From positions 1-64,000 of the forward strand of contig CALVCL010000012.1 of the NCBI GenBank assembly GCA_944326085.1: DNA of 64,000 bases, written 5' to 3'. Shown here piece after piece: positions 603-9,998 of this stretch (within the stretch, counting starts at the first letter, position 1; each line of letters starts with the position of its first letter). The stretch comes from an uncultured Tidjanibacter sp. (lineage in GTDB: Bacteria; Bacteroidota; Bacteroidia; Bacteroidales; Rikenellaceae). A model generated the notes under the pieces. It made no database searches, was not told the origin of the DNA, and was given only the letters and a program-made list of their open reading frames with translations. A program made the translations under genes and the position numbers.

Positions 603-687
603 TGCAGCCTGCAGTCTTTGCAGTTTTGCAGTCTCGGAGTACCGGAAAGGTAAAATTCCTGCAAGACTGCAAGAACTGCAGACTGCA
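603..687. repeat. Symmetric dyad of eight TGCAG/CTGCA units
   Basis: Four TGCAG units start at 603, 610, 619 and 627, and four CTGCA units start at 659, 667, 676 and 683. They mirror each other exactly about position 645. The arms 603-631 and 659-687 pair at 25 of 29 positions, with a 27-nt loop. A ninth unit lies at 704-708. The dyad fills the gap between the end of the upstream gene (594) and the start of the DUF6371 gene (731). It could be an iteron-like protein-binding array, a single-strand origin or an mRNA hairpin; the sequence does not decide. Confidence 0.8.
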
Positions 688-1838: not shown

Positions 1839-1973
1839 GTTGTAAAATCCCGTAGCCTATTAGGGCATTTTCACCGCCTCCGCTCCGCTTCCGGCAGTCA
1901 AAAAGCCCATAGCCCGAGTGAATACCTCAGGCTCCAAATATATGCCTCCGGCAATAAAACGGGATTTTACAAC
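1839..1973. repeat. 15-bp perfect inverted repeat upstream of the relaxase; candidate oriT region
   Basis: GTTGTAAAATCCCGT at 1839-1853 is repeated in exact inverted form at 1959-1973. The 105 bp between the arms contain further short repeats (CCTCCG and CTTCCGGC-type blocks). The second arm lies 28 bp before the relaxase start. Relaxase genes often lie next to their origin of transfer, which usually holds inverted repeats next to the nick site, so this is a reasonable oriT candidate. No nick site was identified. Confidence 0.45.
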
Positions 1974-2001
1974 AGAAATGACAACCATAAGACGAACAGA
2001 T

Positions 2002-3375
2002 ATGAGCAATGCACAATACGCGGTCTGCCACCTGCAGCGTGGCAGCGGTAATGACAGTGGAATGTCATGCCATATAGAAAGGAAGGATGCCAAGGGAAAG
2101 AAATATGTTCCGGCAAATGCTGATGCAGACAGGACGCATCTAAACAGGGAACTGGTCAGATTCCCAGAAGGGGTATCCTGCCGCACCGAGGCGATACAGC
2201 ACCGTATCGACACGGCCGGGCTGCGCCGCAAGGTCGGCAGGAACCAGACAAAAGCCATCCGTATCATCCTGACCGGGACACATGAACAGATGATGAAGAT
2301 TGCCAATGGCGGCAGGCTGGACAACTGGATTGATGCCAACCTCAAATGGCTAAGGGATACATTCGGTGAAGACAACCTTGTATCGTGCGTATTGCACATG
2401 GACGAGAAAACGCCGCACCTGCACGCCACTGTCGTTCCCATTGTAACCGGGGAGCGTATCCGCAGGAAGCGGGAGGGCGAGAAGAAGTACGAGACGAAAT
2501 CCGGTCCCCGTTTGTCAGCGGATGATGTGATGCGGCGCACCAAGCTTCATGAATACCAGAACAGTTACGCAGCGGCCATGAAACCGTTCGGGTTACAGCG
2601 TGGGATTGTCGGCTCCACCGCCAAACATCAGGCAAATTCGGATTATTACAGGCAGCAGGTCATCCGTTATGAGGAGGACATAGCCAAGTTGCAGGCAGAT
2701 GTGGAGAAGGCGCAGGAGGGCAGGAACACCATCCTCTCGTGGTTCGGCAAGGGAGACCTTGCCAAAGCGAAAAAGGAACTATCGGACAAGGATGAGAAGA
2801 TTGCCGAACTCAATAAACAGATTAAGGCTCTTCAGGCAGAAAAGGCACGGTTGCAGGAGCAACATAAATCAGGAATCGAAAAGCTGCGGAACGGCTACCA
2901 GAAAGAGATAGACGCAGCCATCCGCAGGGCGGAAACCGCCGAGCGGCAGTCAGAAGAGAAAGATGCCGTCATAGACAGGCAGCGGAAACAGATAGGCCTG
3001 CTCGACCGTAAGGCAAACCCTCAGCGTTACAGCCTCTCATCCGGTGCCGAGCTTGTCCGAATCAACGTGTCCAACTACCGGAATCCGTCGCTCCATATCT
3101 GGACACGGGTCGGAGAGGAACTTTTTGAGGACACCAAGTTCCAGATAGACTATGATGTGGCCCAAAGGCATTTCAACGGCTTGATCACAGATGAGGAGTT
3201 TGTCAATGCCGTCTTCGAGCCGCAGGAACAGGTAAGCGGGAAGCAGGCCGAGCTGTTGGGAGCAGCTTTTACTCTTGCCGCTGGTGGTCCGGCAGAGGTT
3301 CACGTTGGTACTGGTTCTGGCAGCTCATCGTCTGACCTTCCGTGGAGTGAACAGAAAAAAGGGAATAGAAGATAA
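2002..3375 (+). CDS. MobV/Pre-family relaxase (plasmid recombination enzyme type)
   Basis: A 457-residue protein starting at the ATG at 2002 (MSNAQYAVCHLQRG). The in-frame ATG at 1918 lies inside the candidate oriT region and is less likely. The relaxase domain fills about residues 1-210 and carries the histidine motif HMDEKTPHLHATVVPI, typical of MobV/Pre enzymes that nick one strand at oriT and remain attached to its 5' end. Residues about 220-340 form a long charged coiled coil, followed by a Ser/Gly-rich tail. The protein would let the element be mobilised by a conjugation machine supplied in trans; no transfer genes are seen in the window. The gene ends only 67 bp before the first inverted repeat of the hsdS locus, and base composition drops sharply there. 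Confidence 0.85.
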   Translation: MSNAQYAVCHLQRGSGNDSGMSCHIERKDAKGKKYVPANADADRTHLNRELVRFPEGVSCRTEAIQHRIDTAGLRRKVGRNQTKAIRIILTGTHEQMMKIANGGRLDNWIDANLKWLRDTFGEDNLVSCVLHMDEKTPHLHATVVPIVTGERIRRKREGEKKYETKSGPRLSADDVMRRTKLHEYQNSYAAAMKPFGLQRGIVGSTAKHQANSDYYRQQVIRYEEDIAKLQADVEKAQEGRNTILSWFGKGDLAKAKKELSDKDEKIAELNKQIKALQAEKARLQEQHKSGIEKLRNGYQKEIDAAIRRAETAERQSEEKDAVIDRQRKQIGLLDRKANPQRYSLSSGAELVRINVSNYRNPSLHIWTRVGEELFEDTKFQIDYDVAQRHFNGLITDEEFVNAVFEPQEQVSGKQAELLGAAFTLAAGGPAEVHVGTGSGSSSSDLPWSEQKKGNRR

Positions 3376-3442: not shown

Positions 3443-3475
3443 TACGCCCCATTATGGGAATGTGCCGTTTGAAGT
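3443..3475 (+). repeat. Inverted repeat IR1, left copy (33 bp)
   Basis: The 33 bp beginning TACGCCCCATTATGGG are identical to the reverse complement of 7198-7230. They encode the same peptide (TPHYGNVPFEV) just ahead of the first target-recognition domain in both hsdS genes. Recombination between the copies would exchange everything downstream of the conserved hsdS N-terminus. Confidence 0.93.
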
Positions 3476-4637
3476 ACCAGATTCTTGGGAATGGTGTAAA
3501 CTTGGAACTGTAAATGAAATTGCACGAGGAGGGTCTCCACGACCTATTAAAGACTATTTAACTAATGATGCTAGCGGTATTAATTGGATTAAAATAGGTG
3601 ATACTACAAAAGACGGCAAATATATAGATTCAGTAAAAGAGAGAATCCGGCCAGAAGGCGTAAAAAAATCACGGATGGTTCATAAAGGAGATTTTCTACT
3701 TACAAACTCCATGAGCTTTGGACGACCATATATATTAAATGTAGATGGTTGTATTCATGACGGTTGGTTGGTAATTTCTCCAATTGGAGAAGCATATATG
3801 TCAGACTTCTTGTACTATCTACTTTCATCTTCATTCGCTTTCGAGCAATTTACGAATGTTGCAAGCGGAGGTGTCGTAACAAATCTAAATTCAGATAAAG
3901 TTGCAGATACAAAATTTCCACTTCCTCCTCTTGCTGAACAAAAACGTATAGTTGTAGAAATCGAGCGTTGGTTCGCATTAATAGACCAGATAGAGCAAAG
4001 TCAATCAGACTTGCAAGATACAATTAGGCAGACTAAAAGCAAAATTCTTGACTTTGCCATTCACGGCAAGCTCGTGCCGCAAGATCCGAATGACGAGCCT
4101 GCTATTGAACTGTTGAAACGTATAAATCCCAACTTCACTCCTTGTGATAACGGGCATTATCCGCAGTTACCTGACGGGTGGGTAGTAGTTCCAATGCAAA
4201 TGCTGTGTTCTTTGACGGATGGAGAGAAACTTGACGGTAAAGAAATGCCAAACCTTGACGTAAAATATCTAAGAGGAGAACGTGACTTTAAGACACAGAC
4301 AAATGGGCGATATGTAGCAGCCAATAGCCTATTGATTTTGGTTGATGGAGAAAACTCTGGTGAAGTGTTCAGAACGCCGATTGAAGGTTATCAAGGCAGC
4401 ACATTCAAGCAACTACATATCAATGAAAATATGCTTGCAGAGTATATCTTACACGTTATAAACCTGCATCGTAAAGCATTGCGTGAAAACAAAGTAGGTT
4501 CGGCAATACCTCATCTGGATAAGAAGCTATTTAAGGCAATAGAAGTACCCGTACCACCTTATGATGAACAAGTAAGAATTGTTACTGTGATAAATTCAAT
4601 GCATAGTAAATTGGATGCAATAATGGAGAATTTATAA
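3462..4637 (+). CDS. hsdS: Silent, headless type I specificity subunit (hsdS cassette)
   Basis: About 390 residues with two target-recognition domains (TRDs), but without the first 60 residues of the expressed hsdS. The reading frame is homologous from the IR1 repeat (3443) onward and runs into a stop at 3423 upstream. There is no proper start; a GTG at 3462 is the first possible one. TRD1 covers roughly 3480-3920, and the central conserved helix (AEQKRIVVEIERWFALIDQI, then FAIHGKLVPQDPNDEPA) covers 3925-4140. TRD2 runs from about 4165 to 4560, and the gene ends in a second conserved segment. It lies opposite in orientation to the expressed gene, with no hsdM upstream. The most likely role is a storage cassette for DNA inversion, not a translated gene. 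AT-rich like the rest of the locus. Confidence 0.85.
   Translation: MPFEVPDSWEWCKLGTVNEIARGGSPRPIKDYLTNDASGINWIKIGDTTKDGKYIDSVKERIRPEGVKKSRMVHKGDFLLTNSMSFGRPYILNVDGCIHDGWLVISPIGEAYMSDFLYYLLSSSFAFEQFTNVASGGVVTNLNSDKVADTKFPLPPLAEQKRIVVEIERWFALIDQIEQSQSDLQDTIRQTKSKILDFAIHGKLVPQDPNDEPAIELLKRINPNFTPCDNGHYPQLPDGWVVVPMQMLCSLTDGEKLDGKEMPNLDVKYLRGERDFKTQTNGRYVAANSLLILVDGENSGEVFRTPIEGYQGSTFKQLHINENMLAEYILHVINLHRKALRENKVGSAIPHLDKKLFKAIEVPVPPYDEQVRIVTVINSMHSKLDAIMENL
4141..4162 (+). repeat. Inverted repeat IR2, left copy (22 bp)
   Basis: CTTGTGATAACGGGCATTAT plus CC is identical to the reverse complement of 6514-6535, and it marks the start of TRD2 in both hsdS genes. It contains a small dyad, GATAA-N6-TTATC, which would suit a tyrosine recombinase crossover site. 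Inversion here would swap TRD2 alone. Confidence 0.85.
4148..4181 (+). repeat. Inverted repeat IR3, left copy (34 bp)
   Basis: These 34 bp (TAACGGGCATTATCC...) are identical to the reverse complement of 5085-5118. They overlap IR2 and extend into the start of TRD2 (peptide NGHYPQLPDGW). They link the TRD2 of the plus-strand silent gene with the minus-strand half cassette. Confidence 0.88.
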
Positions 4638-4655
4638 ACTCTCCATTATTGCATC
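4614..4655. repeat. Tail-to-tail hairpin between two hsdS cassettes
   Basis: GATGCAATAATGGAGA at 4614-4629 is repeated inverted at 4640-4655, with 10 nt between the arms. It arises because both converging cassettes end in the same coding sequence (DAIMENL and DAIMESL). It may serve as a terminator for either strand or as another recombination substrate. Confidence 0.75.
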
Positions 4656-5118
4656 AAGTTTTTCAAACATTGCGTTTGTTGCATTGATTATACGCTTTTG
4701 TTCTTTTCTTGGCGGTATCGGCATGCAAAGTTTAGAGTATTCTGAAATCCAATAACGCTTATGAGTGTCACCAATGAGCCGTGTTATGTTCATAAACATA
4801 GCAACATATTCAATTTCTATATCAGCTGCTACTTTTAAGATTTTCATAGCAGATGATTTCACCTTGAATGGAAAATCAACGAGTTTAGAATCTGTGGTGA
4901 AGTCATCAAAAATGATACAGGGCGTATTCTGATAAATGCCTTCTGTTTCGTTAGTATATCCTATTACAAAAGACTTCCCTGCCGTTAAAACAGGGGTTAA
5001 ATATCTGTCGTCATAATCAGTTGAATTGACTATATAGGCTTGTGGTTGTTCGTATTCAACTATGTCCTCTAATCGACATTTGCACCACCCGTCAGGTAAC
5101 TGCGGATAATGCCCGTTA
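4632..5118 (-). pseudogene. hsdS: Silent hsdS half cassette (TRD2 only)
   Basis: An open minus-strand frame of about 162 codons runs from the IR3 repeat (5118) to the stop at 4632. It begins with NGHYPQLPDGW, exactly as the TRD2 of the plus-strand cassette does, and continues with a different recognition domain (CRLEDIVEYEQPQAYIVN...). It ends with the conserved segment PIPPRKEQKRIINATNAMFE. It has no start codon near IR3, no TRD1 and no N-terminal conserved region, so it cannot be a working subunit by itself. The intact frame and the repeat at its edge indicate a reserve TRD2 kept functional by recombination, not a decayed gene. Confidence 0.8.
5085..5118 (-). repeat. Inverted repeat IR3, right copy (34 bp)
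   Basis: Exact reverse complement of 4148-4181, at the 5' edge of the half cassette. Recombination with 4148-4181 would exchange the TRD2 of the plus-strand silent gene for the one stored here. Confidence 0.88.
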
Positions 5119-5157
5119 GGTTGCGCTTTATATTGTTATCGTATTCATCAAAAATTA

Positions 5158-5967
5158 ATGTATATGATAACAAAATTCAAAGACTATCTTGCCAAAACGA
5201 ATTTGGCAAAGAACACCGTAGCATCGTATGTGTGGACGGTGAACTACTTTCTCAGTCACTATGGAGAAGTGAACAAGAAAAACCTGTTGGCCTATAAGGG
5301 CTATCTGGTGGAAAACTTCAAACCGCAGACCGTCAATCTCCGTTTGCAAGGCATCAACAAGTATCTGGAGTTTACCAAGCACGACAGGTTGAAAGTGAAG
5401 TTTGTCAAAGTGCAGCAAAAGAACTTCTTAGAGAATGTCATCAGCGATGCCGACTATAAGTTTCTGAAAGCGCAGTTGAAGGCTGACGGTTACGATGATT
5501 GGTATTTCGTGGTATGGTTTATGGCGGCGACAGGTGCACGGGTAAGTGAGTTGTTGCACATAAAGGTTGAACACGTGAAAGTGGGTTATCTCGACCTTTA
5601 CAGCAAAGGCGGGAAAATACGCCGTCTTTATATCCCCAAGAATTTGCGGAATGAAGCCAAGCAATGGTTGAATGGGAAAGGCATAACAAGCGGTTATCTC
5701 TTTCTCAATCGTTTCGGGCAGCGCATTACGACACGCGGTATTGCCCAACAACTAAAGCATTTTGCCGATAAATATGGACTGAACCGTGATGTTGTTTATC
5801 CTCATTCTTTTCGTCACCGTTTCGCCAAGAATTTCCTTGAACGTTTCAACGACCTTGCCTTGTTAGCTGACCTTATGGGGCATGAAAGCATAGAAACCAC
5901 TCGCATCTATCTGCGCCGTACCGCCAACGAACAGCAGAAGATTGTTGACAAAGTGGTAAATTGGTGA
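5158..5967 (+). CDS. Tyrosine recombinase (hsdS invertase)
   Basis: A 269-residue site-specific recombinase of the XerC/D-like phage-integrase family. The N-terminal SAM-like DNA-binding domain covers about residues 1-85 and the catalytic domain about 100-269. All active-site residues are visible: R128 (TGARVSELL), K153 (SKGGKIRR), H216 and R219 (HSFRH), H242 (GHESIETT) and the nucleophile Y251 (RIYLRR). It sits between the half cassette and the expressed hsdS, inside the segment bounded by IR1, as DNA invertases of Bacteroides type I loci do. It is therefore predicted to invert the hsdS segments. An in-frame ATG at 5164 is an alternative start. It could instead be a leftover integrase, but its small size and position favour the invertase role. 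Confidence 0.9.
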   Translation: MYMITKFKDYLAKTNLAKNTVASYVWTVNYFLSHYGEVNKKNLLAYKGYLVENFKPQTVNLRLQGINKYLEFTKHDRLKVKFVKVQQKNFLENVISDADYKFLKAQLKADGYDDWYFVVWFMAATGARVSELLHIKVEHVKVGYLDLYSKGGKIRRLYIPKNLRNEAKQWLNGKGITSGYLFLNRFGQRITTRGIAQQLKHFADKYGLNRDVVYPHSFRHRFAKNFLERFNDLALLADLMGHESIETTRIYLRRTANEQQKIVDKVVNW

Positions 5968-5993
5968 TAATGTAGCCTTAGAAACGTGTTTTA

Positions 5994-7409
5994 TCACGCT
6001 TCTAAGGCATTTTGAATGTTGTCAAAAACGGAAAACAGTTCTTCAATTTTTAGCACTATTCTATCTTGTTCTTTTCGTGGCGGTAATGGCATTCCTATTT
6101 TATGCAATTCATTAGACGACAAGCCTAACAATCCGATACCTTTACCTCCTATTCGATTATGTTCTTTCAAGAATCGTAAAACATAATAATAAAATAAGAC
6201 ATTTAAGTCTCCTTTAGGGCGCAATCTATGAATGTGATTCTGAATGCAGATATTATAATCAAAATTCCATATTGCAGAACGGCCAATATCTCCGCCTTCA
6301 CATACAAGTAAGTCACCCTTTTGGACAGTACATTTTTCTAATTCATTATCCCTAAAAGGCATTTGTTTAACAAGAGACAAGTCAAACTGATTCCAATACA
6401 CATTGGATGTTGTAAGATAGTTTCTCAATACACCTTCTTTGTTTGATGAGTTAAGAGCCTTTCCCGTATTATGATAGAATATATCTCCTAAAATTACATC
6501 AATCCAACCAACGGGATAATGCCCGTTATCACAAGTAATTTCGGCCTTAGGATTGATGCGTTTTAGCAGTTCCGATGCTGGCTCGTCATTCGGGTCTTGC
6601 GGAACGAGTTTGCCGTGAATGGCGAGGTCAAGGATTTTGTTCTTGGCTTTTTTGATAACTTTCTGTAAATCCAATTTGCCTTGCTCAATTTGGTCAATTA
6701 AAGCAAACCAATTCTCTATCTCTGATACTATTCGGTGCTGTTCTGAAAGAGGGGGAAGAGGGAAAAACATTCGTTCCAAATTATATTTAGGTAATCCCTC
6801 ACGACCACTACCTGTTATCTTCATTGATTTAGAGAATATAGAGGATAGAACAAACGCATGGAAATATTCAGATACAACAAATATTGGACGCATAATGCAA
6901 ACATGTTGACTTACATTTCCCCGTTGAAAGTTTTCAGGAACAATTGCACAACGTCCCAAAGACCCACCTGTTATGTTTAAGAGTAAATCATTAGGCAAAA
7001 CTTCAGTACCAATCATAGTTTGATGTACCTCTTCTGATATAAATTTGATATCTTCGTAAACTAATCCACCGTTATAAATATTTTGAGACCGGAAAAATGG
7101 AATGCCCTTAGAGGAATAGTTACTGCCTCGCGGGGTACTTCCAGAACCTATTTTTGAACAAATATGTTCTATATCCGTCCACACCCAATTATCAGGCACT
7201 TCAAACGGCACATTCCCATAATGGGGCGTATCAGAAGTCTTTGCAGACTTTCTACTTCTCTTTATCTTTCCCTCTTTTATCAACTGCTCTTTTTCTACCT
7301 TGATGCGTTCAAGCAGGACAGATGCAGGTTCATCATTCGGGTCTTGTGGTACAAGTTTGCCATGAATGGCAAGATCTAATATCTTTTGACGTAATTTCTT
7401 AGTATCCAT
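5994..7409 (-). CDS. hsdS: Type I restriction-modification specificity subunit, expressed copy
   Basis: A complete 471-residue HsdS. The N-terminal conserved helix (MDTKKLRQKILDLAIHGKL) is followed by TRD1 from about residue 60 to 225. The central conserved region (SEQHRIVSEIENWFALIDQI and a second AIHGKLVPQDPNDEPAS) comes next, then TRD2 to about residue 435 and the C-terminal conserved helix (LPPRKEQDRIVLKIEELF). It directs the HsdM/HsdR complex to a bipartite DNA target, each TRD reading one half. It starts 5 bp after the DUF1016 gene on the same strand and is the only hsdS copy with its own N-terminus and an upstream hsdM, so it is the expressed one. Repeats IR1 (7198-7230) and IR2 (6514-6535) cut it at the TRD borders, so its sequence is expected to vary within a population. 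Confidence 0.93.
   Translation of the reverse strand: MDTKKLRQKILDLAIHGKLVPQDPNDEPASVLLERIKVEKEQLIKEGKIKRSRKSAKTSDTPHYGNVPFEVPDNWVWTDIEHICSKIGSGSTPRGSNYSSKGIPFFRSQNIYNGGLVYEDIKFISEEVHQTMIGTEVLPNDLLLNITGGSLGRCAIVPENFQRGNVSQHVCIMRPIFVVSEYFHAFVLSSIFSKSMKITGSGREGLPKYNLERMFFPLPPLSEQHRIVSEIENWFALIDQIEQGKLDLQKVIKKAKNKILDLAIHGKLVPQDPNDEPASELLKRINPKAEITCDNGHYPVGWIDVILGDIFYHNTGKALNSSNKEGVLRNYLTTSNVYWNQFDLSLVKQMPFRDNELEKCTVQKGDLLVCEGGDIGRSAIWNFDYNICIQNHIHRLRPKGDLNVLFYYYVLRFLKEHNRIGGKGIGLLGLSSNELHKIGMPLPPRKEQDRIVLKIEELFSVFDNIQNALEA
6514..6535 (-). repeat. Inverted repeat IR2, right copy (22 bp)
   Basis: Exact reverse complement of 4141-4162, at the start of TRD2 of the expressed hsdS. The bases directly flanking both copies differ, so the identity ends sharply at 22 bp. 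Confidence 0.85.
7198..7230 (-). repeat. Inverted repeat IR1, right copy (33 bp)
   Basis: Exact reverse complement of 3443-3475. It lies about 60 codons into the expressed hsdS, just before TRD1. The segment between the two IR1 copies (about 3.7 kb) holds all three hsdS recognition cassettes and the recombinase. Confidence 0.93.
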
Positions 7410-7414
7410 AGCAA

Positions 7415-8572
7415 TCAGTCTTTATTCAGAAACAGGTTGCAAAATTCGTTCAGCTTCTCCTGCATACGTTCTTGTGGAATAAGGATACGCTTGTATTCAG
7501 CTATCATTGTCGGGCTCATGCTCCGGCTCATGGCATATTCTACCACTACCCTATCTGCTTCAGGACAGAGAATTATACCTATGGACGGATTCTCGTTGGA
7601 ACGTTTTACATCCCGGTCAAGTGCTTCCAAATAAAATTCCAACTGACCGAGATCACGAGGATGAAACTTCGTCTTTTTCAGTTCTACAGCGACCAATGCC
7701 TGCAATCCACGATGAAAGAACAGCAAATCGGCTTTAAATGTAGACGCCCCGATATTGAGACGATATTCCTGATCCATGAATATAAAATCTTTGCCCAATT
7801 CAAGGATAAACTGCTTCATGTGCTCCAGCAAACCATTTCTCAACCGTGATTCACTATGCTTCTTTGGTAAATCAAGAAAATCAATAAACAAAGTATCTTT
7901 AAACATGACCGGAGCAGCAGGGTATGCTTTAAGCAACCCTTTTGACATATTGTCCTTATTACCTAATAAAGCCGTATATGTCTGATTTGAGATACAACGC
8001 TGAAGTTCCCGTTTTACCAGATGTTCTTTATTGGCATAAAGAATATAGAACATCCGTTCTTCGTTACTTTTACAACGGCATAAGATTTCAATATGGTTGG
8101 TCAATGTTGTCAATTCCAGTATCTTCGGCATTTGTCCAATTTCTGGCTGGACGATTTGTGCAGTTTTTGGATGTACTATTATTGCGTGTTCTGAAGATGG
8201 CTCTGAATGTGATGTCTCTATTTGTCCAATTCTTGGCTGGACAAATTCAGAGTTCAGGTATTTCTCAACTGTAGTAGCAAATGCCGCAGAAGAATATTCG
8301 TCATAAAATAGCACCATGTTATAAATGCTGCTTCGCCCAAATCCTTTGATGTCCGGTCGTTGTGAACGAATATATTCAGACAACTGTGTTACGACCTTGC
8401 TTCCCCATTCTTCGCTTTTCAATTTGGCTGAAACATAACCTCCCACATGCCATGCTGTTTGAAGCAACTCTTCATTAACAGCTTTGGAAGCACGACTCTT
8501 ATGTTGGAGAATGATGTCTATGACTTCTCCGAACTGTTGTTCGACTGATATGGCTATCTTATTGTTTTCCAT
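7415..8572 (-). CDS. DUF1016 PDDEXK nuclease-domain protein (YhcG type) inside the RM operon
   Basis: A 385-residue protein starting at MENNKIAISVEQQFGE (8572), 4 bp past the hsdM stop; an earlier ATG at 8587 would overlap hsdM by 11 bp. The N-terminal DUF1016 helical domain (VGGYVSAKLKSEEWGSKVV, then LSEYIRSQRPDIKGFGRSSI) is followed by a C-terminal PD-(D/E)XK nuclease fold. The acidic residue in STFKADLLFFHRGL and the E-x-K of VAVELKKTKF are likely active-site residues. Between the domains is a low-complexity stretch with the repeated motif IVQPEIGQ/IVQPRIGQ. Such proteins are common near type I RM systems and sit between hsdM and hsdS here. The role is unproven; an accessory nuclease or complex-associated factor is plausible. 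Spacing of 5 bp to hsdS supports co-translation. Confidence 0.85.
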   Translation of the reverse strand: MENNKIAISVEQQFGEVIDIILQHKSRASKAVNEELLQTAWHVGGYVSAKLKSEEWGSKVVTQLSEYIRSQRPDIKGFGRSSIYNMVLFYDEYSSAAFATTVEKYLNSEFVQPRIGQIETSHSEPSSEHAIIVHPKTAQIVQPEIGQMPKILELTTLTNHIEILCRCKSNEERMFYILYANKEHLVKRELQRCISNQTYTALLGNKDNMSKGLLKAYPAAPVMFKDTLFIDFLDLPKKHSESRLRNGLLEHMKQFILELGKDFIFMDQEYRLNIGASTFKADLLFFHRGLQALVAVELKKTKFHPRDLGQLEFYLEALDRDVKRSNENPSIGIILCPEADRVVVEYAMSRSMSPTMIAEYKRILIPQERMQEKLNEFCNLFLNKD

Positions 8573-8576
8573 ACAC

Positions 8577-9998
<1,422 letters not shown>

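Follow-up and report, generated by a model that had tools for sequence, protein, structure and literature searches.

A mirrored TGCAG array between predicted helicase and primase genes, a candidate iteron origin in a Bacteroidota mobile element

A short gap between two genes in the DNA of an uncultured Tidjanibacter sp. raises the question of what a symmetric set of short repeats does there. The analysis was centered on a stretch of 64,000 nucleotides (contig CALVCL010000012.1, positions 1 to 64,000 of the forward strand), hereafter the window, in which TGCAG starts at positions 603, 610, 619 and 627 (spacings 7-9-8) and its inverse CTGCA at 659, 667, 676 and 683 (spacings 8-9-7), the two sets mirroring each other about a centre at ~645. 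A preliminary description of the locus had reported these four direct and four inverted units, and they proved exact in position and symmetry; it had missed two further outer units that flank them, TTGCAG and a degenerate CTGTAA, with which the complete plan of the array is R-FFFF-RRRR-F. Its opinion that such regularity exceeds chance was borne out, since ten TGCAG or CTGCA matches fall within one 90-bp stretch, whereas, when the 64-kb window was dinucleotide-shuffled 50 times, the largest clusters held 3-5. The array fills the 136-bp gap from the DUF3987 gene to the Zn-ribbon/DUF6371 gene, and the features of the region are as follows:

1-594, + strand: 3' part of the DUF3987 gene, AAA+ helicase with a predicted MCM-like fold (Pfam DUF3987, 1.2e-7)
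355-522, + strand: predicted C-terminal winged-helix DNA-binding domain of the helicase (AlphaFold2 model of the relative L024 mapped onto the window)
442-480 and 490-522, + strand: predicted recognition helix and wing, respectively (same model)
582-587, no strand: outer left unit, degenerate CTGTAA, inverted with respect to the next four units; CTGCAA in relatives
603-631, + strand: left arm, four direct TGCAG units
632-658, no strand: central spacer of 27 bp, its sequence and length differing between relatives
659-687, - strand: right arm, four CTGCA units (inverted TGCAG)
703-708, + strand: outer right unit, TTGCAG
731-1798, + strand: Zn-ribbon and DUF6371 gene, predicted Toprim-type primase (Pfam, 6e-59 and 5e-25)
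1839-1973, no strand: 15-bp perfect inverted repeat GTTGTAAAATCCCGT...ACGGGATTTTACAAC, adjoining the relaxase gene; candidate oriT
1918-3375 (ORF), + strand: Mob_Pre (MobV-type) relaxase gene (Pfam, 2e-23)

The placement between replication-type genes, as first described, was upheld by the domain matches, with the DUF3987 AAA+ helicase on the 5' side and the Zn-ribbon and DUF6371 primase on the 3' side. The 5' end of the helicase gene lies beyond the edge of the contig and window, and a full-length relative, L024 (Pfam DUF3987, 1.4e-54, plus AAA), was used for the domain search and for modelling. The AlphaFold2 model of L024 (pLDDT 86, pTM 0.85) has a C-terminal winged helix at residues 393-449, mostly with pLDDT >80, including a helix at 423-435 and strands at 439-443 and 446-449. 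The best PDB fold matches listed for it were overwhelmingly MCM helicases, and a sequence search of the PDB with the helicase profile gave nothing significant. The model of the DUF6371 protein (pLDDT 90.5) matched the folds of T7 gp4 primase, T4 primosome chains and DnaG. According to these models, the array is flanked by a predicted primase and a predicted ring helicase that carries a DNA-binding tail of its own.

An element inside the plasmid pFunn3_1 has the same gene order, that is, integrase, HTH, DUF3987, array, DUF6371 and MobV, the latter being the name given there to the relaxase. In the window the first GTG of the relaxase ORF falls within the 1839-1973 inverted repeat, so the true start of the gene is probably further downstream. 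The presence of a relaxase in the element, together with the insertion of other elements just 5' of the array in relatives, could suggest that the array belongs to the oriT of the relaxase or serves the element as a recombination site. We give this reading hardly any credence, because the perfect inverted repeat adjoining the relaxase gene is separate from the array and, judged by its sequence and position, a better oriT candidate, because the insertions use another core, ATAAATCTGGNAAATTTAAT, located 5' of the array, and because the array units track the helicase tail, as described below.

The distribution of the array was examined among relatives of the DUF6371 gene, found in 30 genome contigs and many whole genomes. 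Those examined with enough upstream sequence carried an array at the same place down to about 54% DUF6371 identity; the absence or scrambling of the array in close relatives, which the preliminary description had named as fatal to its reading, was thus not observed at or above about that identity. In more distant loci the same gap held arrays of other words, for example TTTCAG, TGGCAC, GTTCAC, TGTTAC, TGTCCC and CTACAT. A first array caller, working over 380 bp, lost power, and a local two-strand caller was used instead. Run blind, it found a significant array (p <= 0.01) in the helicase-DUF6371 gap of 43/77 loci (22/51 after removal of redundancy), although it misses some short arrays visible by eye (e.g. 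L089 and L094). At control positions the same caller found 1/75 before the helicase, 4/76 inside the helicase, 1/76 inside DUF6371 and 2/73 after DUF6371. The last unit ended 5' of the DUF6371 start in 40/41 loci, and the period of same-strand units was mostly 7-9 bp (mode 9). Position, this period, inverted orientation and uniformity of the units within a locus were kept across loci, while the units themselves differed from locus to locus.

The gene 5' of the array encoded a DUF3987, AAA_25 or D5/VapE helicase, and a primase followed in each class; the helicase-array-primase architecture thus recurs on unrelated ATPases. Among DUF3987 genes lacking linkage to DUF6371, an array was detected at p <= 0.01 in 30/121, so the arrangement is common, not universal. 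Repeated short words were also noted, outside the significance testing, right 3' of DUF3987 on autonomous plasmids from other phyla, namely pSR11 (where they are mirrored), Priestia p3, pGM03 and pOSC7112.05. The GC skew of seven plasmids gave no pointer to the array, the skew being likely dominated by gene orientation. Terminal repeats were absent from three small faecal 'phage' contigs, where they were sought as evidence of circular closure, and a scan of viral contigs found no relatives of the DUF6371 primase gene.

Several loci have a layout of their own. In five (L101, L102, L103, L151 and L214) the helicase frame reads through its own array and the repeats are translated as the tail of the protein (e.g. 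..CTIALS..SAKVQSA..). In four others (L090, L106, L149 and L150) the repeated units are replaced, at the same place, by a single long and nearly perfect inverted repeat (e.g. GTTACTATGCACATTTTCGCAAC / GTTGCGAAAATGTGCATAGTAAC), perhaps as degenerate three-unit arms or as a structure-based variant. In one genome (G349, C1:520-529 kb), two different helicase-array-DUF6371 units, L112 and L114, occupy one strand at a distance of ~6.2 kb, an arrangement that suggests tandem elements.

The hairpin and binding-site readings were compared across relatives. The preliminary description had proposed a 29-bp hairpin; the array region does fold as DNA (z = -5.6 against shuffles), but the structure amounts to 30 facing positions, with 26 Watson-Crick pairs, two G.T pairs and two C.A mismatches, both mismatches falling in spacers between units. 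In 22 aligned relatives, unit positions were paired in 429/440 cells and spacer positions in 159/220; two spacer helices were paired in 22.7% and 75% of cells, and one facing spacer pair never forms. Covariation was not above that of shuffles (0.084 vs 0.080, with 128/500 shuffles as high), and complementary spacers were likewise lacking from the unrelated arrays built of GTTCAC and TGTTAC. On these pair counts, unpaired spacers and shuffle-level covariation, the hairpin was ruled out as a conserved feature. In the comparison of covarying pairs with conserved sequence that had been suggested for this locus, pairing was not kept; the units were kept within each locus, with the word changing between loci. 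From the alignments, what evolution keeps is the repeated units, and pairing is a by-product of their two-way orientation.

The same data weigh on two readings in which the array acts as a single strand. One is a structured element, either a hairpin origin for primase-dependent complementary-strand synthesis, similar to the ssi of RSF1010, or a stem-loop origin of the pRN1 type. Folding far above shuffles, mirror-symmetric arms and an adjacent primase agree with it, and pRN1 requires a stem-loop 3' of its winged-helix replication gene (PMC4234260); but the frequently unpaired spacers, the lack of excess covariation and the non-complementary spacers of the GTTCAC and TGTTAC arrays argue against it, as does the concerted change of the direct copies, which goes beyond what pairing alone requires. 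We regard a structured single-strand element as improbable, and the structure-based single-strand origin of the first description was accordingly set aside. The other reading places the array in mRNA, as an attenuator, a terminator or a translational control of the helicase-primase transcript. The array is indeed foldable and intergenic within a presumed operon, but covariation was lacking, an Rfam search gave no family at threshold and only sub-threshold chance matches, the unit follows a DNA-binding domain, and in some relatives (e.g. L101, L102 and L103) the units lie inside coding sequence. An mRNA role, which had also been offered at the outset, is in our view very improbable.

The unit word follows the DNA-binding domain at the C-terminus of the helicase encoded 5' of the array. 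To avoid a false protein-site association produced by array-encoded residues, loci with a frame through the array were masked before the Mantel tests, a masking that may be incomplete for L101-L103 and similar loci. A partial Mantel test of unit against tail similarity, given the helicase core, was significant (r = 0.31, p = 0.0005, n = 65 loci); the coefficient was 0.39 for DUF3987 alone and 0.45 for AAA_25 alone (p = 0.001, stricter array cut-off), where the core given the tail gave -0.15. In the DUF3987 set the core still correlated with the unit given the tail (r = 0.17-0.23), so shared ancestry was not fully removed. After de-replication at a core similarity of 0.6, the effect persisted in the whole set and in DUF3987 (0.15-0.26, p <= 0.005) and disappeared in AAA_25 (n = 8-9 loci). 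Between helicase classes there was no signal (r = -0.03), with too few comparable tails.

Individual loci show the same association. In the clearest case, a natural domain swap, L141 and L148 have cores that are 90% identical and last 50 residues that are only 27% identical, and their units are GTTCAC and TGTTAC, respectively. L141 shares its unit with L146 (tails 88% identical), and L148 shares its unit with L133 (tails 86% identical), though L148 and L133 are no more than 69% identical over their cores. Within the clan of the window, all helicases with the predicted recognition helix S[EK]R[TS]VM go with TGCAG, and all four with T[DE]RTVM (L044-46 and L186) go with TTTCAG. The 7-9-8/8-9-7 spacing is the same in the TGCAG and TTTCAG arrays of this clan, and in the TTTCAG relatives two units remain CTGCA. 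Uniformity within loci, concerted change between loci and tracking of the helicase domain together lend strong support, at the level of sequence comparison, to iteron-like binding sites, the first of the functions suggested in the preliminary description.

Binding sites could also be an operator, at which the helicase, or some other HTH protein that the element encodes, represses or activates the DUF6371 primase-relaxase operon. Such a role, which may coexist with that of an origin, would yield the same protein-site covariation, the array lies immediately 5' of the primase gene, and iterons frequently serve as operators too. On the other side, in the relatives checked the helicase operon was not itself preceded by another cluster of units of similar size, and 8-10 mirrored sites are many for a simple operator. 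The placement of arrays after three unrelated helicase classes, each then followed by a primase, and after DUF3987 on autonomous plasmids, fits replication better. We therefore consider the array unlikely to be an operator instead of an origin, although less so than the single-strand readings.

The reading we favor, with a probability of roughly 0.77, is that the array is the iteron part of the replication origin of an excised mobile element, read by the winged helix of the upstream helicase. Position, geometry, concerted units, the tracking of unit and tail with its domain swap, and the predicted folds of both enzymes are its in silico basis, from which we infer physical binding, helicase loading, head-to-head assembly and origin function. 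Several copies of the DUF3987 helicase would bind the ~5-bp double-stranded units through their C-terminal winged helices and, with four units each way, two opposed helicase assemblies could be loaded head to head. The bound helicase would then open the DNA at the array, and the DUF6371 primase, encoded just 3', would prime synthesis on the opened DNA; as the origin of the excised element, the intergenic array may also tune expression of the primase. SaPI origins have an AT-rich stretch between their iteron clusters; the centre of the array (632-658), unlike these, is 44% G+C, compared with 46% for the whole intergenic region, and no AT-rich unwinding element was found there.

In other respects the locus resembles characterized systems. 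In the SaPI Rep and SCCmec Cch2 initiators, a C-terminal domain reads short iterons just 3' of its own gene (PMC7581432). The SaPI Rep/ori system comprises an initiator helicase with a C-terminal DNA-binding domain, multiple iterons directly 3' of its gene and cognate specificity (PMC7581432). Here likewise an AAA+ helicase gene lies immediately 5' of the array, short direct repeats lie immediately 3' of that gene, a C-terminal double-strand DNA-binding domain is predicted (the AlphaFold2 winged helix), and the repeat is specific to the cognate C-terminal domain in silico, with a residual effect of ancestry. Unlike SaPI Rep, which is of the DUF927 or D5/Primase_Cterm type, the window helicase and its full-length relative lack a match to either and match DUF3987, a separate Toprim primase and a relaxase follow, and the host phylum and element type are others. 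The array system appears to work like those of SaPI and SCCmec, but for this reason we do not file it as a member.

In SCCmec, the isolated C-terminal domain of Cch2 binds 5-nt iterons just 3' of the helicase gene, and the binding was unaffected by deletion of nearby inverted repeats (PMC7581432). The placement and unit length are alike here; Cch2, however, belongs to the D5 family of helicases and goes together with three iterons and the unusual primase CCPol-MP, in contrast to 8-10 mirrored units and a DnaG-like primase. Phage P4 alpha is a primase-helicase whose winged helix binds the origin repeats (PMC4234260) and whose primase is also of the Toprim type, but it is a single fused protein, whereas separate helicase and primase genes flank the repeats of the window. 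In pRN1 the origin likewise lies just 3' of a winged-helix replication gene, orf904, and depends on a stem-loop (PMC4234260), with an inverted-repeat shape and poorly conserved sequence; unlike the present arrays, in which units and not pairing are kept, it is said to lack iterons. The oriV of RSF1010 similarly has iterons, helicase and primase as separate parts (RepC iterons, RepA, and RepB' with ssi hairpins), but there a separate protein, RepC, binds the iterons, whereas in the window the reader of the iterons appears to be part of the helicase.

Kazlauskas et al. (2018) assigned DUF3987, by prediction, to the helicases of mobile elements and raised the possibility that the C-terminal winged helices of related proteins recognise origins (PMC5862659). 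Full replication of PICMI satellites requires a primase gene that contains DUF3987, and deletion of prim in PICMI115, an element and host different from those of the window, lowered copy number (PMC10803314). No prior description was found in the searchable papers on DUF3987 or Bacteroides iterons, and none of them described an origin for DUF3987-type helicase-primase elements of Bacteroidota. The novelty lies in the type of helicase and the range of hosts, in the mirrored geometry of 8-10 units and in the protein-site covariation, including the natural swap. Many mobilizable elements of Bacteroidota carry helicase and primase genes, and for these candidate origins are now proposed, together with a rule for finding them, namely to look in the gap 3' of the helicase gene. 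The dozens of natural protein-site pairs supplied, among them a near-perfect domain swap, make origin recognition, incompatibility among resident elements and replicating vectors for laboratory Bacteroides directly testable. A broader proposal, which we advance tentatively and at somewhat below even odds, is that the helicase tail and the downstream iterons are swapped as one cassette while core and primase stay, across unrelated helicase families, in mobile elements from Bacteroidota and from certain other phyla. Such swaps would change origin identity, with for instance less cross-talk between co-resident elements, and the variants would constitute a readable code from winged helix to DNA.

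Some observations concern the surroundings of the array. The 3' end of DUF3987, which immediately precedes the array, appears to be a hot spot at which other elements integrate; the core lies at positions 533-552 of the window, and the other loci concerned are L305 and L306 (genome of L042), L303 and L304 (G349), L023 and L020. In one genome ~86 kb separate the helicase from the array, with a tyrosine integrase beside the junction and a copy of the core at either end; an insertion of this kind would split the initiator from its iterons. The genome that holds the window also has a second, partial copy of DUF6371 (73% identical), located where a contig starts (G000:C6:1-264), and may therefore hold another such element. 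Finally, 3' of the relaxase gene, positions 3462-9995 of the window hold several HsdS-like specificity genes, an HsdM-like gene and a tyrosine recombinase (5158-5967), which, with the Hsd assignments made by reading the translations, seemingly represent a type I restriction locus in which recombinase-driven shuffling is likely.
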